A DNA stretch of 64,000 nucleotides, taken from Mycolicibacterium tokaiense. Its GTDB lineage: Bacteria > Actinomycetota > Actinomycetes > Mycobacteriales > Mycobacteriaceae. A model generated the notes under the pieces. That model saw nothing but the letters and a program-made list of their open reading frames with translations. It was not told where the DNA came from and did no database searches. The position numbers and the translations under genes are program-made. Below are positions 9,805 to 21,229 of this stretch, piece by piece (position 1 is the stretch's first letter; every line of letters starts with the position of its first letter). The stretch lies in NCBI RefSeq assembly GCF_010725885.1, contig NZ_AP022600.1, forward strand, positions 2,356,001-2,420,000, written 5' to 3'.

Positions 9805-9809
9805 CGGTG
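9805..9809. repeat. attL core
   Basis: CGGTG is shared with 19116-19120. Host 13E12 sequence lies to the left and element sequence to the right. Serine integrases need only a very short identical core, so five bases is not unusual. The exact crossover dinucleotide cannot be fixed from one genome. Confidence 0.75.
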
Positions 9810-9864
9810 ATGACACCGATAAGCCAAAGAACCTTCAAGCCTGAGGCGGCTAACGTGTGAGGCT

Positions 9865-10854
9865 GTGCTCCATCTGCTGATCGACACCTCGACGTGGCTC
9901 GACCTTGCCAAGCGGCGCGACGGCCAGCGGCTAATCGTGCCCATCCGCGTCCTGGTCTTCCAGGGGAGGCTTGACGTTCTGGTGCCCCAGCTCGTGATCG
10001 ATGAGTTCGAGCGCAATCGGCCCAGGGTCGAAGCGTCGATGACTTCGGAGGTCACCCAGCGGTTCAAGCTCATCCGCCGCGACCTGGTGCAATACGGGAA
10101 CGACCAGCAGGGCGAGGCTCTGGAGATGATCGACCAGCTTGCTCACCAGGTGCCGCTGATAGGAGCGATGACGACGCGGAACTTCGAGGAGATCCGCGAG
10201 CAGCTGGAGCGCAGCACCAGGATCGATCCGACCGCCGCCGAGCAAGCGCGCGTCGTTGAACGCGGCCTGGCGAAGTCCGCACCGTTCCACCGCTCCCGCA
10301 ATAGCGTCGCGGATGCGCTGCTGATCGAGATGTACTCGACCGCTCTGGCGAGTGCGGGCGAACATGATCGATACGCCTTCATCACATCGAACTCCGAGGA
10401 CTTCTCCGCGGTGGGCGGCGACAACCGCGAGCCGCATGCCGACCTAGCTGGCCTCTTCGCCGGGGTGAAGTCCACCTATGGCCTGGGCGTCGAGGGCCTG
10501 GAGCGTGTCCTGGCTGACGAGTTCGGCGAGGAGTGGCCGGAGATCTTGGAAGACAACTACTTCGAGGAGGAGCCCCGACGCCTCGACGAGATCCTGGCGG
10601 CTGAGCAGGAGATGTTCGATCGAGTCTGGTACGACCGCTCGATGCTCCACGAGCAGAAGGCCATCGACGCTGGTGACGATGCTGATCTGGAGCACCTGCG
10701 CAAGGTGGCCGGACCAGCTCGCGCCCGCGTCGAGGAGACCTACGGCGTCGAGAATCTCGGCCCCTACGACAAGTTCGAGTGGGGAATGATCAACGGCAAG
10801 CTCTCCGCGCTGCGCTGGGTGCTCGGCAGCGAGTGGGATTTCCTCGACACCTAG
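9865..10854 (+). CDS. PIN-domain (DUF4935-like) putative nuclease, element cargo
   Basis: A 329-residue protein beginning 55 nt inside attL. The first 180 residues form a PIN fold with the expected acidic residues: Asp7 in LLIDTSTWLDL, Glu47 in VIDEFERN, Asp150 in NSVADALLIEMY and Asp179 in ITSNSEDF. PIN proteins of this kind are metal-dependent RNases. The C-terminal 150 residues are Glu/Asp-rich helices of unknown role. It is on the strand opposite the phage genes, alone at the element edge, with no antitoxin gene beside it. That placement fits a cargo gene, perhaps anti-phage or superinfection immunity (inferred). GTG 9865 has no clear ribosome site and may be leaderless. Confidence 0.8.
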   Translation: MLHLLIDTSTWLDLAKRRDGQRLIVPIRVLVFQGRLDVLVPQLVIDEFERNRPRVEASMTSEVTQRFKLIRRDLVQYGNDQQGEALEMIDQLAHQVPLIGAMTTRNFEEIREQLERSTRIDPTAAEQARVVERGLAKSAPFHRSRNSVADALLIEMYSTALASAGEHDRYAFITSNSEDFSAVGGDNREPHADLAGLFAGVKSTYGLGVEGLERVLADEFGEEWPEILEDNYFEEEPRRLDEILAAEQEMFDRVWYDRSMLHEQKAIDAGDDADLEHLRKVAGPARARVEETYGVENLGPYDKFEWGMINGKLSALRWVLGSEWDFLDT

Positions 10855-11831
10855 TTATCACCGAGGTCGAGCTGTCCCGCGCGGTCTACCCCCGCGGATC
10901 CGGATCGTTTGCGCAGCTCAGAGTTTCGCGGCGGCGAAGGTCGAGCCGGGGTGGTAGCAAACGGGTGCGGCCAACCGCGGTTGGAGTCCTGGTCTGCTGT
11001 TGGGAGGGAAGCCTCGGAAACTCCCCCCGGAGAGCCGAACCAGCCTGCGCTGGAAAGTCTGGGGTGTTGTACCTGGTCAGGTGGGGTGATTGCGGGGTTG
11101 TACCTGACCGTTTCGGGCCATATTCGGGGTGAGAACTTTCCACGGGGAGATGCTGGGTCGAAGGGCTCAGCTACCGCTATTCGTATCCGTTCGGCGCTGC
11201 TCCGCCCGCAAGCGATGGAGGCCGCGGCAGCGGTGCTGATCCATCAGCCCTGTTCAGGGCGGTATGTTGCTGGGGATCGGCCCCTGTAGCTAGGGAGTGA
11301 GCACGTGCGGCGGGACTGGCCAGCAACAGATCCGCGCCCGGTACCCCAGCAACATCCGCTGCCGCTGGAAACCCTTTGGAAACTCTCGCCGCAGCGCCCC
11401 GACCCGGCCTAAAAGCCCAGTTCAGAGAGGTTCGGTACCTGGAAACCCGGCCTGGGGGGAGGGAGGTTGCTGGCTCTAGCTACCCGGAAACTTTGCCGGG
11501 GGGAGAGCAGACCGCCTGCGTCGGGCCGGTGGTGTTGCTGGCGTGAACTTTTGACCCCCCTATCCCCCGTGGGTGGGTGGTACCTGGGCCTGTATGCCCT
11601 GTTCAGGGGCGTTTCTGGGTGGGCCACGGTGATCGGGTGATCGGCGGCGGGCTGTCGGGTGATGTACCCAGGACCGCGTGGTCGGGCTTGGTCGGCGGTG
11701 TTGCGGCGTTCGCTGGCGATGTTGCTGGGCTGTTGGAGGTGTTGCGGGCGTCTCGGGTCGGTACCTGGCGGGGGTGTTCGGCGGGTGGCGATGTACCTGG
11801 ACGCCATGCTGTGCGCGGCGTTGGTACCTGG
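10855..11831. repeat. Non-coding, repeat-rich stretch of the element (TACCTGG and GTTGCTGG motifs)
   Basis: No convincing gene lies in these 977 bases. TACCTGG occurs at 11070, 11436, 11581, 11762, 11794 and 11825 (one more at 12057 inside the next gene), often as GGTACCTGG or TGTACCTGG, with a variant at 11101. A second motif, ATGTTGCTGGGG, at 11264-11275 is repeated inverted at 11344-11355. GTTGCTGG recurs near 11466, 11533 and 11720. A seven-base word is expected about once per 16 kb per strand, so the clustering is not chance. It may be a protein-binding array for replication, packaging or recombination directionality. The first 200 bases show nothing. Confidence 0.6.
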
Positions 11832-12128
11832 ATGTCGGGGCCAGAGCCGATCATGTTGCAGATGGCACGGACACTCGATGACCTGCGGCAGCTGCGTTAC
11901 CTGCGGCGTGTGGCTGCTCGACAAGGCTTGAGGCTCGTCAAGTTCGGGCCGCATTCGCAGCGCACCCTGCATCAGCAGCATGGCCCGATCGCTCTCGTCC
12001 GCGCCGCGGATGGCGAGCTGATCAAGTCGAGGCTGGACCTGTGCTCGGCGTGGAACTACCTGGTCACCGACATGGACGATGACGAGCCGAACTGGACGAG
12101 TTCACCGCCGCGTCGTCGGCACGCCTGA
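11832..12128 (+). CDS. Small hypothetical element protein
   Basis: A 98-residue protein beginning MSGPEPIMLQMARTLDDL, with a basic helical centre (LRYLRRVAARQGLRLVKF) and an acidic end (TDMDDDEPN). The open frame extends upstream to 11577, but that part is the repeat region and has phage-noncoding composition, so I chose ATG 11832. I recognise no family. It lies in the position where phiRv1 carries small plus-strand genes (Rv1573-Rv1575), opposite to the capsid block. Confidence 0.55.
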   Translation: MSGPEPIMLQMARTLDDLRQLRYLRRVAARQGLRLVKFGPHSQRTLHQQHGPIALVRAADGELIKSRLDLCSAWNYLVTDMDDDEPNWTSSPPRRRHA

Positions 12129-12398
12129 GCTGAGCTGTCGCCGATCACCGCGTGGGTGGCTGATCCACCTTCGCTTTGCGCAGGCCCCTCTGCGCTGGTT
12201 TCTATGAGCTTCAGCGCCTCGGCAACCGACGCGCTTGCGGCGGCGAACTGGTGGGTGCGGGCTCCGGCGTGGTCCTCGAATTCCACGCCGGAGCCGCGCG
12301 AGAGCCCCCCGGCCCGCGACCTGGTGAGAGTCATGGGGGATCCCGTCCAAGCCGCCCGTGCAGGCGGGTGTGGTGGGCCGAGGGGCTCGATCTGGGGA

Positions 12399-12488
12399 GG
12401 CGCGGCCAGCGCACCCGAGCGGATCGCCGCTGCTTGACGATCTCGGAGTGGAGGTGGGTTCCACTGCCCAGGGTGCGCTGGCCGCGCC
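12399..12488. repeat. Perfect 18-bp inverted repeat between convergent element genes
   Basis: The left arm is 12399-12416 and the right arm 12471-12488, exact reverse complements beginning GGCGCGGCCAGC. The 54-nt interval contains a second hairpin (AGTGGA at 12447-12452, TCCACT at 12460-12465). The structure sits in the 500-nt gap (12129-12630) between the plus-strand 98-aa gene and the minus-strand capsid block, and I see no gene in the rest of that gap. A two-way terminator is the simple reading, but the long spacer and nested stem also suit a packaging or replication site. Confidence 0.8.
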
Positions 12489-12630
12489 CGACTGCTGAGC
12501 GGTGCGGTCGCTGTCTCGTGCGCCCCGAAGCTGCGCACGATGCATCGACACTCGCTCAGCTGGTTGCCTGCCACGCGATCCACGGTCGAGGCTTCCGTGG
12601 TGCCGCGCCCGAGAGCGCGCAGCAGGACAC

Positions 12631-12810
12631 TCATTTGGTCGTCACTCCGGCGACGATGGCCGGTTCGACCATCAGCTCCCCGTACACCCGCTGGGCGCGC
12701 AGGATGCCGCCCAGGGCCAGCGCGCGGACCTCGCGCTGGGTCAGTTTCATTCGCCGCGCGCATTCGGCGACGGTGAGCCAGTCCCGGTCTTCGTCGTCGT
12801 AGGCGGTCAC
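12631..12810 (-). CDS. Small helix-turn-helix (excisionase/MerR-like) protein
   Basis: A 59-residue protein. After an acidic start (TAYDDEDRD) it reads WLTVAECARRMKLTQREVRALALGGIL, the excisionase-type winged-helix pattern with conserved A...L.....V..L...G. GTG 12808-12810 overlaps the stop of the upstream 57-aa gene as GTGA. It is the last gene of the capsid unit. It could be a regulator or a second recombination-directionality candidate; the sequence alone does not decide. Confidence 0.65.
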   Translation of the reverse strand: MTAYDDEDRDWLTVAECARRMKLTQREVRALALGGILRAQRVYGELMVEPAIVAGVTTK

Positions 12811-12980
12811 CGGAGCGCTCGCTGCTGCGCCCAGGCGTCGCCCTCACGAAGCGCGGAGTCCTCGTCGGGATGGATCCGCGCTCCGTGGTGCTGCGCGCCG
12901 CTGGGGCCGCGCCAGCGCCAACGCCAGCCACCGGCCACCGCTTCGGTGGACAGCTGGCCAGCGTCGGGCGTCAGCGGCAT
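12807..12980 (-). CDS. Small hypothetical protein downstream of the capsid gene
   Basis: A 57-residue, Trp-rich protein (GGWRWRWRGPSG) with an acidic C-terminal half (HPDEDSALREGDAW). The start follows the capsid stop as TGACATG, and its own stop overlaps the next start (GTGA), so it is tightly coupled on both sides. That arrangement is the main evidence that it is real. I do not recognise the family. Position suggests a capsid accessory or decoration role (inference). Confidence 0.5.
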   Translation of the reverse strand: MPLTPDAGQLSTEAVAGGWRWRWRGPSGAQHHGARIHPDEDSALREGDAWAQQRALR

Positions 12981-12981
12981 G

Positions 12982-14151
12982 TCAGCCGATCACCGTGTCG
13001 ATCACCGCGAACGCGGACGGGCGCAGGTGGGCCACGCCGAACCGGCCCTCAGCGCGGGCGCGGAACTGGTTCTTGTTGAACAGCTCACCGCCAGCGTCGA
13101 TCTGGATGTTCACGTCCTCGCGGACGTGCAGCTGGACCCGGCTGAAGTCACCGAGCACGGCCAGGCCCGCAGGCATCGACGGCGACACCACGCGGGTGAT
13201 CGTCGGACCGCCGAGGACGTTGCCGCCGGGGGTCGTGGACAGGGCACCGCCCATCAGCCAGCCGCCCTCGGTGCTCTCCCGGAGCAGGTCCAGCGCCTCG
13301 GCGTCATCGGGTGCCAGCACGAGCGCGTTGGGCTGCTCCCCGGCGTTCTGCATCACCGTGAGCGCTTTGCGCAGCGTGCGTGGCAGCGAGGTCTCCGAGG
13401 CCACCTGGCGCGTTCCCGCGATCTGGGTGATGCCGTCGAAGTTCTCGCCCTCGCCGTCGCCGGAGATGATCTGGCGCTCCAGGGCATCGAGCACACCCTC
13501 GGCCATCTCGGTGGACAGCCAGTCCTCGAAGCCGTTCACGTCATCGAGCAGGCGCAGCGGCACCGGCTCGGACAGATGCGCGACCACACGGGCGCGGTCG
13601 ACGATCGGTGCCAGGGTCAGCACCGAGGTCGGCTTGAGCGCGTTGTCGGCGACCGGGGCCGCGTTGTTGGTGCGGACCGTCTGCCGGTGGTACTCGAACG
13701 CATTGCCCGCGAGGGGAAGTCGATTCACCAGCAGATCGATCAGCCGCTGCGGACGAGCCATTGGCGTGATGCTGGGGTTGATCAGCACCGGGACATCGAG
13801 TGAGCCCGAGCTGATAGCGCGCGATTCACCGCCCTTGACCTGGAGCGCCCGAGCTGCGCGACGACCCCAATCGCGGGCCTCGGTCAGACCAGCACCTACG
13901 CCGCCGTTGAGCTGCGCCTGGCGCACCCGCTGCACGCGGGTGTCGTAGCGACCGGCGCGCGCGATCTCAGCTTGCGTGTCGGCGATCCGAGTGTCGAGCG
14001 CAGCGATGCTGCCGCTGAGTTCATCGAAACGGTGCTGCTCGTCTTCGGTGAGCTGCCCTGCCCCTGAGCGCTTCGCAGCGTCCAGGATGGCCACCCGTTC
14101 GGCGGTCACCTCGGCCCGCTTCTCCATCAGCTGCGAGAGAAAGATCTCCAT
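12982..14151 (-). CDS. HK97-fold phage major capsid protein
   Basis: A 389-residue capsid protein. Residues 1-70 are an Ala/Glu/Arg helical coiled coil like the delta (scaffold) region of HK97-type capsids. From about residue 110 the HK97 core follows, with VPVLINPSITPMARP, the DWLSTEMAEGVLDALERQIISGDG helix region, QPNALVLAPDDAEALDLLRES and the C-terminal FGVAHLRPSAFAVID. The delta region is normally removed by a prohead protease, yet no protease gene was recognised in the element, so processing may rely on a helper phage. phiRv1 has its capsid gene (Rv1576c) at the same relative place. Confidence 0.9.
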   Translation of the reverse strand: MEIFLSQLMEKRAEVTAERVAILDAAKRSGAGQLTEDEQHRFDELSGSIAALDTRIADTQAEIARAGRYDTRVQRVRQAQLNGGVGAGLTEARDWGRRAARALQVKGGESRAISSGSLDVPVLINPSITPMARPQRLIDLLVNRLPLAGNAFEYHRQTVRTNNAAPVADNALKPTSVLTLAPIVDRARVVAHLSEPVPLRLLDDVNGFEDWLSTEMAEGVLDALERQIISGDGEGENFDGITQIAGTRQVASETSLPRTLRKALTVMQNAGEQPNALVLAPDDAEALDLLRESTEGGWLMGGALSTTPGGNVLGGPTITRVVSPSMPAGLAVLGDFSRVQLHVREDVNIQIDAGGELFNKNQFRARAEGRFGVAHLRPSAFAVIDTVIG

Positions 14152-14469
14152 GTTGTGTTGGCTCCTAGCCGTCGTTGGTCGGGCGGAACCGGGCGCGTCG
14201 CGCCGCTGGAAGAGGGACGGGCGACGCGACCGGTTCCTTCGACAGATCTGGGGAGCGCGCGGAGTGCCACCGTCGACCCGGCCAGCTGGGCACGTGAGGT
14301 TCGTGACCGCCGAGAGATGCCGAAGCCGATTTGTCTTGCCTGCCTCACCCTGACGGATCGGCCTGCTCAGCTATTCCCACCTGCGAGACCGGACGCTACG
14401 CCCGCGCTGGGGCAACCTCGCCGCGGCACGCCCTATCCAAGTTCGCTTATACGAGAACAGGTCTCAGCG
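14152..14469. promoter_or_regulatory. Gap before the capsid gene with a 17-bp hairpin
   Basis: These 318 bases hold no credible gene. Arms 14185-14201 and 14221-14237 (GGAACCGG start, GACCGGTTCC end) pair at 16 of 17 positions around a 19-nt loop, giving a very stable hairpin 34 nt before the capsid start as transcribed leftward. A TATAAG hexamer on the minus strand near 14440 could be a capsid promoter -10, but no good -35 is visible. The hairpin may end the upstream early transcript or shape the capsid leader. Confidence 0.6.
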
Positions 14470-14991
14470 TTACCCGCCGGAGGCTTCGCGCCAGGACGGC
14501 AGCCTCGACAGGTCTGATTCCGGACGGCTGGCCTGGCGCTCGCGCTCGATCTCGGCGTCCATTGCGGCGGCCTGAGCGCGATGCAGAGCGGCGTTCGGAT
14601 CGTCCGGGGCGAATGCGTCCTGCGCGGCCTCCCGGCGGTCCAGCTCTCGCTCGGCCAGCGCCAGCAGTTTGGTCAGCCAGCGACCCCCGGATCCCGGTTC
14701 GCTGGCCGGTCCCCGGAGGACGCCGTGGAGGACCTCCAACTCGACGACGTGGAGCGATCTGAAGTCGACGTGCTGCTGGGGTGTTTCGGTGGCGGCATCT
14801 GGTGAGCCCAGGAGGCGATCGGCGGAGCGTAGGCGGGCTGCGTGTTCGGTTTCGATGGCGTTGGCGATCTGGTCGAGCCAGCGCCGCACTTCATCGTGCT
14901 TCTGGACGCGATCGGCGAGTAGCGCGAACAGCTGGGCGGTGCGCTCCAGGTCGCGAAGGCGGACCGGGCTCAGATCGGGTAGGGGGGTCAT
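14470..14991 (-). CDS. Hypothetical element protein, helical
   Basis: A 173-residue, charged, alpha-helical protein (LRDLERTAQLFALLADRVQKHDEVRRWLDQ, in part) without a signal peptide or recognisable enzyme motif. It precedes the capsid gene, where many phages carry a scaffold, small terminase or protease. I looked for the S78-type protease His/Ser motifs and did not see them. Its start overlaps the stop of the upstream 67-aa gene (ATGA, 14988-14991). Confidence 0.65.
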   Translation of the reverse strand: MTPLPDLSPVRLRDLERTAQLFALLADRVQKHDEVRRWLDQIANAIETEHAARLRSADRLLGSPDAATETPQQHVDFRSLHVVELEVLHGVLRGPASEPGSGGRWLTKLLALAERELDRREAAQDAFAPDDPNAALHRAQAAAMDAEIERERQASRPESDLSRLPSWREASGG

Positions 14992-15191
14992 CGGGAACTT
15001 CCTTTCAGGCCGGTCTCAGCTGCGAATTTGAACCAGGCGCGTTCGGCGCGGATCCGCCCTGCGGCTACCTCGCTCAGCAGCTCGGCGGCGCGCGGGTGGG
15101 TCGCGGTGTAGGTCACCAGACGCGCCCGGAACGTATTGTCGCGCTTGCGTGTCAGATCGTTATTGCGGTGCCGCGCCTTGTGTCCGTGCAT
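14988..15191 (-). CDS. Small basic element protein
   Basis: A 67-residue, strongly basic protein beginning MHGHKARHRNNDLTRKRDN and ending AWFKFAAETGLKGSSR. The composition suggests nucleic-acid binding, but no family is recognised. It is coupled to the following gene by an ATGA overlap and lies 9 nt after the zinc-ribbon gene upstream. Confidence 0.55.
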   Translation of the reverse strand: MHGHKARHRNNDLTRKRDNTFRARLVTYTATHPRAAELLSEVAAGRIRAERAWFKFAAETGLKGSSR

Positions 15192-15200
15192 CGGTTTCTC

Positions 15201-15533
15201 CTACTGATCTGTTGCGTTTTCACGCAATGGGGTGCTGCGGACTCTCCAGCGGCCCAAGCGGTCTCGGAACACCACCTGATGGGATCCCTGGCAACCCTCT
15301 CCGCACGGGACGATCGCTGCGGCCTCGAAGGTCTCGGCGGGGCTGTCCCAGAACGTCAGCTGCGCGAACGCCGTCCGGGTGTGGGGGCTCAGCGCGCTGC
15401 ACACCAGCGCCGCCGCCGAACCCGGGCGGACCGGCTCGCTCCGGCACAACCCGCATAGCCCCTCCATGAACGAGTTCAGCCCGCGCAGCGCCACTCCGCA
15501 GGACGCACACAACCGGGGCGCGCGAGGACTCAT
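15201..15533 (-). CDS. Zinc-ribbon protein (CxxC-x18-CxxC)
   Basis: A 110-residue protein. Cys pairs CASC (residues 9-12) and CGLC (27-30) form a treble-clef or ribbon knuckle. Further Cys residues occur in IVPCGEGCQGSH. The N-terminal 40 residues resemble the 67-aa protein at 15898-16101 (both C-x2-C, about 14-18 residues, G-L-C-x2-C), so the two are probably related by duplication. ATG 15533 overlaps the stop of the upstream gene (ATGA). The role in the element is unknown; such ribbons are common in actinophage early regions. Confidence 0.65.
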   Translation of the reverse strand: MSPRAPRLCASCGVALRGLNSFMEGLCGLCRSEPVRPGSAAALVCSALSPHTRTAFAQLTFWDSPAETFEAAAIVPCGEGCQGSHQVVFRDRLGRWRVRSTPLRENATDQ

Positions 15534-15808
15534 GGCTGGTCGGGCTCTCGTGCGGATCGGTCGAGCACCGCGAGCAGCGCCCCTTCGATCCGGACCTCGG
15601 CAGCTTCGCCGCCCTCGAAGTGTCGGAGCGCTCCCGCAAGGTTCAGGGCCAGCCGCTCGGCGATCTGCCAGAGGCAGCCGGGGCAGTCCTCGGCGGTGTC
15701 CAGCGCATCCGCCAGCGCACCGTGGTCACCACGGGTCGCGGCCAGCGCGGCGCGCAGCCCGATCGCTGCCAGGTCGAGCCGATCATCATTGGCGGGGTCG
15801 TGAAGCAT
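15530..15808 (-). CDS. Hypothetical element protein
   Basis: A 92-residue protein from ATG 15808 (MLHDPANDDRLDLAAIGL), mostly helical, with one CPGC pair in DTAEDCPGCLWQIAERLALN that may bind metal. The frame is open to 15913, which would add 35 Pro/Arg-rich residues and overlap the upstream gene by 16 nt. I prefer 15808 because AGAGAGGA lies upstream and the extension looks noncoding. No family recognised. Confidence 0.55.
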   Translation of the reverse strand: MLHDPANDDRLDLAAIGLRAALAATRGDHGALADALDTAEDCPGCLWQIAERLALNLAGALRHFEGGEAAEVRIEGALLAVLDRSAREPDQP

Positions 15809-15897
15809 CGGGCGTGTGATCCTCTCTGGACTGACACTCGGCGGTGTCGGCTGATTGCCTCTCTGCGGCGTCGAAACGAGCTGTGCGGGTTCATCCC

Positions 15898-16101
15898 TCA
15901 CCGGACGGGCCAATCGCGCGCAGGACGGCCAGCTGGGCGCTGATTCGGGCGTGCCCGCGTCGATGGCTGGGTCGCCGCTCGGCGCAAGCGCTGATCACGA
16001 GCCACCCAGCGGCATTCCGCACAGAGGCCAGCCCGGAGGGAATCCGGACGCCAGAGCACCTCGGGGCAGTTGGCGCAGACGCGCTCGGTCTCAGGCGTCA
16101 T
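15898..16101 (-). CDS. Small zinc-ribbon protein
   Basis: A 67-residue protein with CANC and CAEC knuckles spaced like those of the 110-aa protein at 15201-15533, followed by a basic, Pro-rich tail. It starts 11 nt before the end of the initiator gene, so it is translated from the same message. No enzymatic function can be inferred. Confidence 0.6.
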   Translation of the reverse strand: MTPETERVCANCPEVLWRPDSLRAGLCAECRWVARDQRLRRAATQPSTRARPNQRPAGRPARDWPVR

Positions 16102-16939
16102 CGACCGCTCCGAACGGATCCCGGGCAGACCCAGCCAGCCGGTACATGCGGGTTGTCGAGCTGGCGCTCACGTCGGCCTGGAGGTCACCCCGTGCCAGCA
16201 TCAGCTCTCTGACGACGGGCCAGAGCTTCCGCTGAGCGCTCGGTAGAGCCTCGCGCAGCGTGCGGTTGTCGGCGCTGCCGACTTTCCGGAGCTTGAGCAC
16301 GATGCGCTCCTGGACGGATCCGAGCTTGGACCGGTCGCTCTCGGAGAGACCCGATTCGGCGGCGTCGAGAGGGTGAGAAGCACTTCCCCCAGACCCCCTA
16401 CACAACGAGAGATTCCCCCCGTCAAGGAAACCGTCAAGGTAACCGTCATGTAGATCACCCTGGGTGAGCTGAGCACCCTCTCGATTTGAGCTGAGCACCC
16501 CCTCGTTTTGAGCTGAGCACCCTCTCGAATTGCTCTGCGCTGGGTTCGCTTTGGGTGATCCGTGCACATCCCTCTCGTCGCTCTGCGCTGGGAGCGTTCT
16601 GGGTGAGCTGAGCACTTCGGCTTCTGCTGGGATCATTCTGGGTGAGCCGAGCATCCCGACCTCGTAGACGGTAGCGAAGCCGATCCCATGAGATTTGTAT
16701 CCGCGCTTGACTTCTCGGATGAGACCGAGATCTCGGAGTCTCCGGGTGGCACGCTTCGCGGTCGCATCGGACTTGCCCATGGCGGACCCGATCCGCGCGA
16801 CTCGCACCGATCCTTGCCGGTCGGTGGTGTGGCACTTTTCGGCGATGGCCAGCAGCGCGAGCATCTCGCCTGGCGAGAGTCTGTCGAGCAAGCCAGCTTC
16901 GCGGGCGTCGAGGACTTCGCCGATCAGTTGTCCACTCAC
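16091..16939 (-). CDS. Replication-initiator-like winged-helix protein with iterons inside the gene
   Basis: A 282-residue protein. Residues 20-95 form a winged helix (SPGEMLALLAIAEKCHTTDRQG, in part, then GKSDATAKRATRRLRDLGLI). Residues 96-170 are a low-complexity linker of short peptide repeats (GSPR..PAQ three times) encoded by the DNA repeats listed separately. Residues 200-282 form a second helical/winged domain (ERIVLKLRKVGSADNRTLREAL). An N-terminal DNA-binding domain followed by a linker whose own DNA is the iteron array is the plan of lambda O. I infer an origin-binding initiator; a plain regulator is the alternative. Confidence 0.65.
   Translation of the reverse strand: MSGQLIGEVLDAREAGLLDRLSPGEMLALLAIAEKCHTTDRQGSVRVARIGSAMGKSDATAKRATRRLRDLGLIREVKRGYKSHGIGFATVYEVGMLGSPRMIPAEAEVLSSPRTLPAQSDERDVHGSPKANPAQSNSRGCSAQNEGVLSSNREGAQLTQGDLHDGYLDGFLDGGNLSLCRGSGGSASHPLDAAESGLSESDRSKLGSVQERIVLKLRKVGSADNRTLREALPSAQRKLWPVVRELMLARGDLQADVSASSTTRMYRLAGSARDPFGAVDDA
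16419..16655. repeat. Iteron array inside the initiator gene, candidate origin
   Basis: Three 19-base copies of TGAGCTGAGCACCCTCTCG (second copy one base different) start at 16465, 16487 and 16509, an exact 22-nt period. Further copies of the core lie at 16604-16615 (exact), 16643-16655 (TGAGCCGAGCATC) and 16555-16566 (degenerate). Next to them are three tandem 12-mers beginning CCGTCA at 16419, 16431 and 16443, a lower-GC patch that could melt. Because 22 is not a multiple of three, the same DNA word is read in three different frames (RGCSAQ, EGVLSS, EGAQLT), so selection acts on the DNA rather than on the peptide. Confidence 0.75.
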
Positions 16940-16994
16940 CCGCCAGCCTCTCCGGCGATCGACGCGGGCAGCTGTGCGCTATCGGAGTCCACGG

Positions 16995-17159
16995 TCACGC
17001 GGCATCACCAGACGCCTGACGCTCGGGACGAATCCGCACGGGGCGCAACAGCTCGGCGAGCTTGGCGCGGCGGTCCTCGGACAGGGGCGGCGCACCGGCC
17101 AGGATCTCGGCCACATACGCGTCGATCGCGGCCTCGCGGTCCGCTGCGGCGGCGCTCAC
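16995..17159 (-). CDS. Small actinophage-type hypothetical protein
   Basis: A 54-residue protein, SAAAADREAAIDAYVAEILA followed by PPLSEDRRAKLAELLRPVR. This A..P.L....R..L..LLR pattern is common in short proteins beside excisionases of mycobacteriophages. Its GTG start overlaps the stop of the excisionase-like gene (GTGA, 17156-17159). Function unknown. Confidence 0.7.
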   Translation of the reverse strand: MSAAAADREAAIDAYVAEILAGAPPLSEDRRAKLAELLRPVRIRPERQASGDAA

Positions 17160-17353
17160 GATGCCGCCTCTCCAAAGATCAGGGCGAGGACATCCTCCCG
17201 CCGGATTCGCACCAGACCGCCGATCTTGCGGCTGGCCAGCGAGCCGTCTCGGAGGCGCTTATCTAGCGTGGCCGTGGAGATGCGCAGCAGCGCTGCGGCT
17301 TCCACGCGGGTGAGGAGTGGCGGCAGCGCATCACGATCGTGTTCGTCGGACAC
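17156..17353 (-). CDS. Excisionase-like helix-turn-helix protein (candidate recombination directionality factor)
   Basis: A 65-residue protein of the excisionase/MerR winged-helix family: LLTRVEAAALLRISTATLDKR, a loop, then SRKIGGLVRIRREDVLALI. In phiRv1 a small protein of this class (Rv1584c), two genes from the integrase, turns the integrase toward excision. The position here is the same. GTG 17353 has GGAAGG about 11 nt upstream. It opens the long minus-strand operon that runs through the initiator to the capsid region. Confidence 0.8.
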   Translation of the reverse strand: MSDEHDRDALPPLLTRVEAAALLRISTATLDKRLRDGSLASRKIGGLVRIRREDVLALIFGEAAS

Positions 17354-17631
17354 AGGGGGCGGACCTTCCGAGGTGACGGAACCCGAGGCAGGCGGAATCG
17401 GTCATCGGGACCGGTTCCGCTGCTGATCGGCCTTCACCCCGACACCGCGCCCGGTCGGATGAATCCGCAGATCACCGGGCGATGGAGTCAGGCTGGCGTG
17501 TGTCGGTGGGCTGTGTGGATCGCCCGAGAATGACGCGCAGCTGGTTTCCTAGTTCGTGCGGAAGAATCTAAGCCGCTCTCACTCCATGCGCAACTATCGA
17601 AATCTGTTGTGCGCGTTCAAGTCCACTTGAA
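17354..17631. promoter_or_regulatory. Gap between integrase and excisionase-like gene
   Basis: These 278 bases should hold the promoter of the leftward operon. Directly after the integrase stop is the perfect hairpin TTCAAG-TCCA-CTTGAA at 17616-17631, either a short terminator or an operator. The stretch 17540-17631 is the lowest-GC part of the element. No sigma-A promoter with both boxes is clear to me. Confidence 0.45.
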
Positions 17632-19092
17632 TCAGGCGAGCATCGCGACCTGGATCCGCTCCGGTTTGAATGAGTGTCCACCCTTACCAACTGGGGCGAT
17701 GACGATCGTCATCAGCAGATCGATCACCGCGCGCAGGCGATCCGGGGAGAGCTTGCCGACCGCCTCGTGGGCTGCTTTGGTGCCCAGCTCCAGGCCGTCG
17801 AGCACCCGTTTGCGCTCCTCGCTCTGCTCGCGGGAATCGAGGACAGCGAGTTTGGCGGTGATCCGTTCGGTGGCGCGCTGGGCCTGCTGGCCGGTGAGCA
17901 TCCCGTCTGCGCGCTCGTCGGCGATCTCATCGAGCCGGGTGTTCAGCGTCAAGCGCTCGGCGCGCATCTGGGCAGCCTCGGCTGGATCGTGCAGCTCCGA
18001 GCGCAGAAGATTGATCGCGTCCGCTTTGGCGAGGCGACCACCGACCAGCTTGATCACAATTGGCTCGACGAACTCAGCGCGGATGGAGCAGCCGCGGCAG
18101 GTTTTACAGCTGTAGGCCAGCGTGTAATCGCGCTGCCCGCTCTCGGCGGCGGTCTTCGTCGCGAACTGCCAGTTCCCAGACAGGGTATTGCCGCATTTGC
18201 CGCACTTGAGAATCCCGGTGAGCAGGTGCGCGCGGACCGATTTGCGGCCCGGAGCGCGCCCAGGAGCGTTCAGCACGGCTTGCACCGAGCGCCATGTCGC
18301 CTCGGGCACCAACGCTGGCCAGTTGGCTTTCCCGACGATCTCCTGCTCCCCGTCGAGCGGGCAAGGTCGGTGCCCCAGAGTGGCGCAGTTGTGCTTGTGG
18401 GAGCGCAGGCCCGCATTTCGAGCCTTCCGCAGGAATAGCGAGACGGTCGTGGCGGTCCACGGACGCCCGGTGAGCCCGAATGCTCCAGCCCCGTTAAAGG
18501 TTCGCGCCACCTCTCCGAGGCTGGCACCGGCCAGGATCGCTGTGTAGGCCTGCTCCACCAGGGGCGCGGTAACCGGATCCGGCTCGCGGGTGTCACCCGC
18601 ATATCCGAACGCCCGACGCCACTGGGGCTCCCCGCGCTCGGCTTTCTGCCGCGCCGCGCGCAGCTGCCGCGCCCGCTTCCGCTCGATCTCCTTGCGAGCC
18701 ACAGCGCCCATGATGCGAGCTGTGAACCGCCCGTCATCGGTCGAGAGGTCCACATCACCGGTCACCGTCGCTAACGCCACGCGATGCACGTTGGCCAGAT
18801 CAACGAAGGTCTCCAACTCGATCGGCTGGCGATGCAACCGGTCCAGGTGCCAGCACACCACCGCCCCGATCCGGCCCTGTCGGATGTCGTTCAGCATCCG
18901 CTCGTAGGCGGGCCGCTTGCGCCCGGAGGATGCGCTCACGTCGTTGTCGACGTACTCCACGGGCAGCCACCCGCGATCCTCACAGAGGCGAATGCAGTCC
19001 TCCCGCTGGCGGGTAACGCCGAGCTGCTGGCCGGACGGATCGCTGGACATGCGCAGGTAGACCGCTGCGCGGGTCGTGCTGGGGGTGTTCAT
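17632..19092 (-). CDS. Large serine integrase, phiRv1 type
   Basis: A 486-residue serine recombinase. The N-terminal catalytic domain (1-150) has VYLRMSSDPSGQQLGVTRQR with the nucleophile Ser at about 16 and the DRLHRQPIELE helix with the catalytic arginines. The recombinase domain (about 155-260) contains FGYAGD and TGRPWTATTVSLFLRKARNAGL. A zinc ribbon follows (CGKCGN...CKTCRGC), then a coiled coil (350-430) and the ending KPERIQVAML. From memory, the match to the phiRv1 integrase Rv1586c is close over the whole length. The gene starts 23 nt from attR, as in phiRv1, and phiRv1 also uses a 13E12 repeat as attB. Confidence 0.95.
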   Translation of the reverse strand: MNTPSTTRAAVYLRMSSDPSGQQLGVTRQREDCIRLCEDRGWLPVEYVDNDVSASSGRKRPAYERMLNDIRQGRIGAVVCWHLDRLHRQPIELETFVDLANVHRVALATVTGDVDLSTDDGRFTARIMGAVARKEIERKRARQLRAARQKAERGEPQWRRAFGYAGDTREPDPVTAPLVEQAYTAILAGASLGEVARTFNGAGAFGLTGRPWTATTVSLFLRKARNAGLRSHKHNCATLGHRPCPLDGEQEIVGKANWPALVPEATWRSVQAVLNAPGRAPGRKSVRAHLLTGILKCGKCGNTLSGNWQFATKTAAESGQRDYTLAYSCKTCRGCSIRAEFVEPIVIKLVGGRLAKADAINLLRSELHDPAEAAQMRAERLTLNTRLDEIADERADGMLTGQQAQRATERITAKLAVLDSREQSEERKRVLDGLELGTKAAHEAVGKLSPDRLRAVIDLLMTIVIAPVGKGGHSFKPERIQVAMLA

Positions 19093-19115
19093 TCCTTAAA
19101 TGTATTCGAGCAAGT

Positions 19116-19120
19116 CGGTG
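19116..19120. repeat. attR core
   Basis: CGGTG is shared with 9805-9809. Element sequence lies to the left and the N-terminal half of the 13E12-type gene to the right. Replacing everything between the two cores by one copy restores an intact frame. Confidence 0.75.
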
Positions 19121-20302
19121 GTGGGTGCGGCATTTGGGGTCCAGGTTGAACCCGGCGGTCCAGCCACCGCGCAGCGGATGCTGGTGATCGAACGGGATGC
19201 TGTGATCGATATCCGCGGCCCAGGCGGGCTGGTTGCAGAACGGGAACGAACACGTCAACCCCCGCACGCGGACCCAGCGGTCCATCGCCGCCGACCAGCT
19301 GTGGCGCAGCAGCACCGAGGTGCCGTCGCGGGTTTCGGTCGCCGCGGTGGGGTCGGTGTCGGGGTTGCGCACATCCCGGCATACGGTGCCCGGCTGGTCG
19401 ACGAGTTCTCGGACTTGGTCGGCGTCGATGACGCCGTAGCCCTGCAGGAAGCCAGGTTCGTCGCTGTCGCCGGTGACGGTGGCCGCCGGGGCGATCACAT
19501 TGATGACGTACTGCGCCGCCGCGCCCGCAGTCGCGTCCGTGGTGGGTTTCGGTGCCGGGCAGTCCTCCAGCCCGCACGCACACGCCAACACAAAGCTGCC
19601 GTCGGCGATGGCCTCCGCCGCATCCACCCGCCGCTGCACCAACGTTCGCGGATCCTGGGCGCACACCGCCTTGGCCATCTGATCCAGCCGGGCATCCACT
19701 TTCGCGATCACCGGAGCGCCGGCATACAGGCGGATCTCACCCATCCCGTTGGGTAGTGCCTTGGCCGACACCCGCCGCTCGGTGTCGGCGGCGACGCGGC
19801 GTTCTTTGGCACCGTCGGGATCGACGTGCAGGATCGCCCGATCGATCGCGCCCTGCAGGCGGGTGCGCGACCAGCAGTCCCAGGTCGCGATCCTCGCCGC
19901 CAAATTCCGGTCCACGTCCCGGATCGCGGTGTCGCTGACATGGGCCGTGCGATTGATGATGACTTTCGTCGACTCCCAGTCCAACCGTCCCGACGCCAGC
20001 AGGCCGTAGATCTGCGGCAGCCGCTCCTCCAACGCATCGGCGTAGCCGACGATTGTCATCGCCACCGCCGGCGGTACCCCCAATGCCGGCCCGATTTCGG
20101 CGGCGGTGCGCACGAACCCGGAGATCAACCCGAAACCCGGATCGCCGTCAGGTAGCAGGGCTTGTTGGTCGTAGCCTTCGTTCATCCGCTGGGCCAGCAG
20201 CGCGGCGATGGCGGCCATCCGATGCGCCCACACCGCGGACTCATCGAGGCGGGAAGATTCCACCTCGGTGAGCAGCGCTCCGGGATCACATCCTTCGAAC
20301 AT
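19116..20302 (-). pseudogene. N-terminal half of a REP13E12-type DUF222/HNH gene, cut off by element insertion
   Basis: From ATG 20302 the protein shows the DUF222 domain (about residues 10-300, including MNEGYDQQALLPDGDPGF in part) and the HNH zinc core CSFPFCNQPAWAADIDHSIPF followed by NLDPKCRTHHR, where homology stops at attR. The frame continues into the element for about 45 foreign residues (stop near 18980). The missing C terminus is at 9339-9804. A truncated product keeping most of the HNH motif could still be made. Members of this family are repeated in mycobacterial genomes and their function is unsettled. Confidence 0.88.
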
Positions 20303-20398: not shown

Positions 20399-21229
20399 TC
20401 AGTCGGCTACAGTTCGTCGCGCCACCCACCCGGCGAGCAGCTCGTTGAAGAGGTCGGGTTCCTCCCACATCGGGCAGTGACCGCTGTGGTCGAAGACATG
20501 CAGTTCGGCGTCGGCCAGGGCCTCGCTCAGCCAATCCGCCGAGGCGACCTTCACCACCTTCTCGTCGACGCCCCAGATCAACAGATGGGGCACATCGAGG
20601 CCCGTCAAGAAGCCGCGGTAGTCCCGCAGGGTCTGATCGGCCAAGATCACGGTCCCTGGGTTGGGCTCGATCTTGGTGATCTCGGCGAGCAGCAGTGCCG
20701 CATCCGCATCGGCGAGCGGGTCTTTGAACATCTCGGCCAGGAACTCTGAGAAGAAACCGGAGAAGTCGGACTGCATGGCGTCGACGAAGCTGCCGAGTTG
20801 ATCGGGGTCGGCGATGCCGTGTGGCCAGTCGGGCCGGGTCAGGTCCGCGGGACCCTGTGATACCACCGCCAGCCGGGCGAGTCGGTCGGTGCCGAACTGG
20901 CTCAGGTGGTCCCACCAGACGAAGGAGCCCATGGACCACCCGACACCCGTGACATCGTGGAGGTCGAGGGCAACCATGAGCTCGTGGAGGTCGCGGGCGT
21001 ACCGGGCGACGGTGTTCCCGGAGGAGGACGTCGGCGAATCCCCGTGCGAGCGTAGGTCGACGGCGATGACCCGATGATCGACGGCCAGGGCGTCGATGTT
21101 GCGCGCGAAGAACGCGCTCGTCATGCACACGCCGTGCACCAGGAGCACCACAGGCCCACTGCCCCGGTCCAGGTAGGTCAGCACCGCACCGTCGGACAAC
21201 CGGAGTTCACGCTTGTCTGCCTCGATCAC
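20399..21229 (-). CDS. Alpha/beta-hydrolase
   Basis: A 276-residue alpha/beta-hydrolase with the oxyanion segment [13 protein letters not shown], the nucleophile elbow GWSMGS, the acid in WGVDEKV and the catalytic His in [10 protein letters not shown] chose GTG 21229 (AGGTGAGG just upstream) over the longer frame to 21286, which would overlap the divergent helicase gene. The substrate is unknown; the fold is shared by haloperoxidase-like and ester hydrolases. It was probably the upstream neighbour of the intact 13E12-type gene. Confidence 0.85.

Follow-up and report, generated by a model that had tools for sequence, protein, structure and literature searches.

Iterons preserved as DNA within a winged-helix gene suggest an intragenic replication origin in an integrated mycobacterial element

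The stretch of Mycolicibacterium tokaiense DNA analysed here (64,000 nucleotides in full length; hereafter the window) harbours an element of ~9.3 kb. Its junctions at 9805-9812 and 19116-19123 were placed with four further DUF222/REP13E12-like genes (L056-L059) of the same genome (G000) that exhibit 93-95% protein identity, are intact across the junction and represent potential vacant integration sites; the overlap of 8 nt was read from L056 and L058. The features of the element are as follows.

9805-19123, no strand: whole element, ~9.3 kb, interrupting a REP13E12-like (DUF222) gene (blastn of the intact paralogs L056-L059 against the window)
9865-10854, plus strand: PIN_12-domain protein (Pfam)
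12982-14151, minus strand: major capsid protein (Pfam Phage_capsid, E 7e-26)
16091-16939, minus strand: initiator gene, 282 aa (ORF calling, AlphaFold2, phrog_270 match)
17156-17353, minus strand: small HTH_17 protein (Pfam HTH_17, E 5.8e-9)
17632-19092, minus strand: large serine integrase (Pfam Resolvase and Recombinase; 43.6% identity to the integrase of Mycobacterium phage Kumao)

The HTH_17 protein is probably an excisionase, and the PIN_12-domain protein, encoded just within one junction on the strand opposite to integrase, initiator and capsid, is possibly cargo. The capsid is of HK97 type, as is established for the Phage_capsid family, and by integration site, integrase type, capsid and size we take the element to be phiRv1-like, a comparison made by description. 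No terminase, portal or tail protein was detected among 11 element proteins scanned with Pfam (six of them also with PHROGs). Serine integrase and capsid within 9.3 kb correspond to the pairing of integration machinery and major capsid gene that serves as criterion in the part of PMC10654092 available to us. The original prediction held that this class of elements is usually described only as integrated; this was too strong, since candidate PICIs, thought to be mobilisable, are in print in that same part. Elsewhere in the element, ~1.8 kb (10855-12630) exhibit almost no codon-preference coding signal (best ORF score 2.3), and a 59-aa ORF at 12631-12810 (minus strand), near the end of the capsid gene, has a good codon score and appears HTH-like by eye. 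A tRNA-His gene is located at 21092-21186 (minus strand), ~2 kb beyond the element junction.

The initiator comprises a winged helix (residues 1-94), a predicted disordered linker (~100-188) and C-terminal helices (190-269). AlphaFold2 assigns pLDDT values, per 10-residue block, of 86-98 over residues 1-100 and 36-56 over residues 101-190, and the C-terminal helices are modelled with moderate confidence; the low-pLDDT segment coincides with the stretch encoded by the iterons described below and is presumably disordered. The protein matches phrog_270 ('replication initiation protein') with E 1.6e-5, and PHROG families for replication initiation cover up to 22 of 40 homologs. HTH_36 remains sub-threshold (E 0.0046-0.027), and Pfam, PDB-sequence and PDB-fold searches yielded, among the matches listed, only generic winged helices or sub-threshold matches, the listed PDB fold neighbours of the winged helix being mostly transcription regulators or factors. 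When viral structure models were searched, proteins with the annotations lambda GpO N-terminal and replication protein O came up at low TM. In a protein comparison, the nearest relative is P0002 from Mycolicibacterium iranicum, with 64% identity over 62% of the query. The C-terminal parts vary: homolog P0012 contains a DnaT DNA-binding domain at residues 165-230 (E 1.2e-5) and L019, in its place, a phage zinc finger, which is, judging from these domain matches, C-terminal domain swapping.

Within the initiator gene, the following features were located, listed in the direction of transcription.

16658-16939, minus strand: predicted winged-helix DNA-binding domain, recognition helix at residues 58-70 (alignment and AlphaFold2)
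16643-16654, minus strand: degenerate iteron, 2 mismatches (mismatch scan)
16604-16615, minus strand: iteron GTGCTCAGCTCA, exact copy within a longer imperfect unit (repeat and exact-match search)
16556-16567, minus strand: possible degenerate iteron, 3 mismatches, weak (mismatch scan of the gene)
16509-16520, minus strand: iteron GTGCTCAGCTCA, exact copy (repeat and exact-match search)
16487-16498, minus strand: iteron GTGCTCAGCTCA, exact copy (repeat and exact-match search)
16465-16476, minus strand: iteron GTGCTCAGCTCA, copy closest to the 12-mer tract (repeat and exact-match search)
16415-16450, minus strand: three 12-mers with core TGACGG, proposed unwinding element (repeat and GC scans)

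Three copies of GTGCTCAGCTCA are spaced at exactly 22 nt, belonging to a direct-repeat family at 16465, 16487 and 16509 (spacing 22 + 22) whose members are 94% and 88% identical to the reference over 32 nt. The 12-base copies begin at gene positions 419, 441 and 463, that is, in frames 2, 0 and 1, the 22-nt period placing these first three copies in three different reading frames, just as had been predicted. The 16556-16567 copy is weak because another 3-mismatch match exists at gene position 700, outside the array. Exact GTGCTCAGCTCA occurs six times in the 6.33-Mb genome, four times in this array, and TGCTCAGCTCA with at most one mismatch has seven matches in the window, five of them inside the initiator gene; 0.94 are expected per whole window, and none of 100 shuffles of the window reaches seven. 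The distance between the last iteron and the first TGACG is 16 nt. The 36-nt stretch with the lowest GC content in the gene (0.44 versus a gene mean of 0.64) overlaps the 12-mer tract; for the window taken singly, the GC content of the 12-mers is not significantly below synonymous expectation (0.101). The lower-GC tandem 12-mers that were predicted to adjoin the array are thus present. As for the array itself, predicted to span 16419-16655, the end at ~16654 was recovered; 16419 falls into the 12-mer tract and not into an iteron. The larger 39-48-nt units of the window are imperfect dyads at best, and a 7-mer inverted-repeat test of the window was not significant (469 of 1000 synonymous recodings were equally high).

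When genomes of the genus were searched with a winged-helix profile, 16 of 396 proved to contain the family, the own genome included; at order level it was located in two of 397 genomes, both of the same genus (one of 85 genera). An alignment query found 10 loci in genome_contigs and two in viral_contigs, collections in which single-sequence scans gave no match, and the initiator was not detected in 50,697 phage and 72,556 plasmid records. Sixteen distinct members including the window were analysed as DNA; L043, from a metagenomic viral contig, was missed by the start-motif filter, stands outside the 16-row counts and was added later as a check. Among the further loci, L044 repeats L025, L017 and L020 are near copies, and L013 (G236, E 6.7e-4, one internal TGA), a weak match absent from the profile matches, was left out of all counts.

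As null model for the repeats we used 1000 random synonymous recodings of the linker, with the peptide unchanged and the codons of the family, and counted repeated 10-mer pairs. The window linker contains 45 such pairs, against an average of 0.24 and at most 5 in the recodings. Fourteen of the 16 members exceed all 1000 recodings, L016 being equalled by one and L026 by five. Repeated pairs are scarce outside the linker, with 0-2 in the winged helix and 0-3 in the C-terminal part, which could be scored in all members but L018 and L023. Moreover, the codon-preference score of the window's true frame is negative over gene positions 300-600, i.e. the iteron stretch, and then recovers, as if a constraint on the DNA overrode codon choice there. 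Across members, the winged-helix domain is conserved and the linker peptides differ, with the same DNA word appearing in different frames. What the members retain in the array is the DNA and not the peptide. That the repeat is kept as DNA had been claimed from the window alone; comparison of the members, 17 of 17 of which have an iteron array while their linker peptides vary, bears this out, and is the opposite of freely varying repeats in a conserved peptide, one of the findings named beforehand that would speak against the claim.

The architecture is likewise shared. All 17 members (the 16 and L043) have their own iterons in the same place, after the winged-helix domain and in the predicted disordered linker, and the order is winged helix, dyad-like units, half-sites mostly 21 or 22 nt apart (the iteron period is 21 nt in L015, L016 and L045), and then TGACG repeats. 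The dyad-like units follow each other in steps of mostly 36-41 nt (39-48 nt in the window), with one 67-nt step in L017, L018 and L020; an excess of inverted 7-mers at the 5% level is seen in nine of 16 members, the window not among these. With at most one mismatch, 88 of the 90 half-sites found in the stretches scanned of the 16 members lie in the linkers, one of the other two lying in the upstream 1000 nt plus winged helix and one in the downstream 1000 nt (L023 has no downstream DNA). The gap from the last iteron to the first exact TGACG measures 15-17 nt in 14 of 16 members and 34 nt in L026 and L043. L016 contains degenerate copies and no exact TGACG; its 17-nt gap, to a degenerate AAACG, comes from a wider pattern that also admitted AAACG and TGACA. 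The 14 members other than L016 and L018, and L043 as well, have at least two TGACG repeats inside the gene, in steps of 12 nt in most members, 15 in L017 and L020, and 11 to 13 in L021 and L052. In L018 (7931-8461) a stop codon ends the protein at 176 aa directly after the first TGACG, and further TGACG repeats follow beyond it; this member is also without the CACCCAG-type iteron that its near relatives have in terminal position. The GC content of the 12-mer tract is under the synonymous mean in all 16 members, at or below the 0.05 level in 10 (window, as given above, 0.101), and the lowest-GC 36 nt of the gene are found at the 12-mers in 11 of 16, with one tie, and elsewhere in four. A conserved DnaA box was considered and rejected: in a scan of the 16 members (at most one mismatch, 600 nt before to 900 nt after the start), the window match covers start codons and is not kept, and five members have any match, in scattered places.

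The DNA word itself differs among members and changes with the protein. Four iteron word classes, assigned by eye like the half-site words and last-iteron positions, can be distinguished: GGGTCA (five members), CCG[AC]CA (six and L043), GCGCCA (four) and AGCTCA (the window). Residues 59 and 62 of the recognition helix are S/K or S/Q in the first class, R/E in the second, R/V or R/D in the third and A/K in the window, with no exception in 17 members. When the 95 positions are ranked by their correlation with half-site distance (16 rows), 59 (r 0.80) and 62 (r 0.66) come out on top. With the rest of the domain removed, the helix correlates with the iteron word at r 0.56, a value reached in none of 5000 permutations, which ignore relatedness. 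Descent explains part of the covariation, since outside the helix the domain still shows a correlation with the iteron word (r 0.43, 3 of 5000 permutations); related rows inflate these tests. In a tree calculated without the helix, which is short (85 columns) and leaves 7 of 14 inner branches without resolution, the R59/E62 CCG[AC]CA class is not one clade, and L043 shares a branch (98/98) with three GCGCCA members and the window; well-supported branches force at least two changes in this class, that is, gains or losses rather than two origins.

Taken together, we consider it very probable (roughly 0.87) from the sequence comparisons that the array is an intragenic replication origin of the element. 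The N-terminal winged helix of the initiator would bind the iterons located in that stretch of its own gene which encodes the disordered linker, and with sites 21-22 nt apart the proteins would sit on the same side of the double helix. The resulting complex may then strain the adjoining, AT-richer 12-mers open, and the variable C-terminal part may recruit the replisome, with helicase and primase being supplied by the host (or a helper phage), so that the excised element could be replicated.

Other roles for the array can be envisaged. The winged-helix protein might be a transcription regulator whose operators lie within its own coding sequence and which, once bound there, blocks or tunes the operon, as its common fold with the PDB neighbours named above and the dyads, which are typical of operators, might suggest. 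We regard this as unlikely: the upstream 1000 nt plus winged-helix part of all 16 members hold just the one half-site, and both the near-constant distance to the AT-richer 12-mers and the PHROG replication families are more in keeping with an origin. A role in partition, incompatibility or packaging appears more improbable still. Iteron arrays can have such roles, and the element would need a helper for packaging; however, the array is located inside the gene of a DNA-binding protein that sits near replication initiators, and no partition protein was found among the 11 element proteins scanned by Pfam.

That the repeats are a mere by-product of a repetitive, low-complexity linker peptide, with the DNA not selected, is hardly conceivable. 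It is the 21-nt period of L015, L016 and L045, which makes their peptides repeat as well, that lends this explanation some appeal, but synonymous recodings of the same peptides give almost no repeats, 22-nt periods set the same word in all three frames, and the TGACG repeats of L018 run on past the end of the coding sequence.

Returning to the array as an origin, it is tempting to speculate, and here we are tentative, that mycobacterial satellites possess a re-writable origin cassette, in which winged helix and iterons move as a block, residues 59 and 62 set the word, the linker tolerates any frame, and the C-terminal recruiter (zinc finger, DnaT-like or helical) is swapped separately. Pfam analysis of 20 chosen proteins from 12 of the 15 other members (L018, L020 and L023 were left out) identified tyrosine integrases in seven members, a serine integrase in one and capsids in 10, so that the cassette occurs in satellites with different integrases. 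If this speculation is correct, the tolerance of the linker for any frame would allow new, mutually compatible replication specificities to arise without loss of the protein. In any case, the family is a natural collection of initiator-iteron pairs whose recognition and DNA target shift together under coding constraint, so that both the recognition code and replicon compatibility become directly testable. For the phiRv1-like, PICI-like elements of Mycobacterium, whose origins are undescribed in the literature covered, some of it in part, it provides a candidate.

This candidate origin can be set beside several known systems. A literature search that covered few subscription papers returned no description of such an origin among the matches listed, and candidate Mycobacterium PICIs are in print with no origin described in the part of PMC10654092 available. 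With the pri-rep-ori module of PICIs the element shares the satellite-type organization, i.e. an initiator of its own beside integration and excision genes. In PICIs, however, the origin lies 3' of rep, and in the examples from E. coli two iteron sets flank an AT-rich region (PMC6092414, in the part covered), while the iterons of the window are inside the gene and on one side only. For RepA of the extrachromosomal mycobacterial prophages Miko and Jeeves, the authors favour an origin just upstream of or within repA, in the fashion of lambda, and the portion of PMC7157519 covered reports no repeated motifs in the region examined; the window differs in having repeats, and its protein is without match in the phage collection.

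Likenesses are also found in plasmids. pSK41 Rep, of the RepA_N family, is a three-part protein: its gene carries the Rep boxes at mid-length, where the N-terminal winged helix binds them, the origin encodes the central linker, and the C-terminal part is genus-specific; the hybrid Rep of the staphylococcal plasmid pPR9 combines a phage-like HTH_36 (pfam13730) N-terminus with an exchangeable C-terminus (both from the part of PMC5703833 available). The window protein shares with the former the three-part layout, its central linker being encoded by the candidate origin, with no match to the RepA_N Pfam domain; with the latter, by description, it shares an HTH N-terminus (the sub-threshold HTH_36 match) and a variable C-terminus.

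The ori-lambda origin likewise lies in the middle of the O gene, with initiator-bound iterons and an AT-rich tract beside them (PMC7466680, in the part covered). The window, known from its sequence, resembles it in the mid-gene position, the iterons and the adjoining AT-richer tract. It differs in that no Pfam match to lambda O (Phage_rep_O) was obtained for the window protein up to E 0.1, or for its first 105 residues up to E 1, in the weakness of the O-like PHROG matches (E 0.05-0.09 for the window; two O-like PHROGs match 4 of 40 and 2 of 40 homologs), and in that Pfam revealed no helicase loader of the lambda-P type among the 11 element proteins examined. The designation 'lambda-O-like' given in the original prediction is therefore apt for the way of working and not for family membership, neither lambda O nor RepA_N being matched in Pfam. 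The candidate origin of the window is best read as working like those of phage lambda O and pSK41 Rep while, by the sequence tests run, belonging to neither family; the design recurs in the relatives of the element, with several different DNA words among them.
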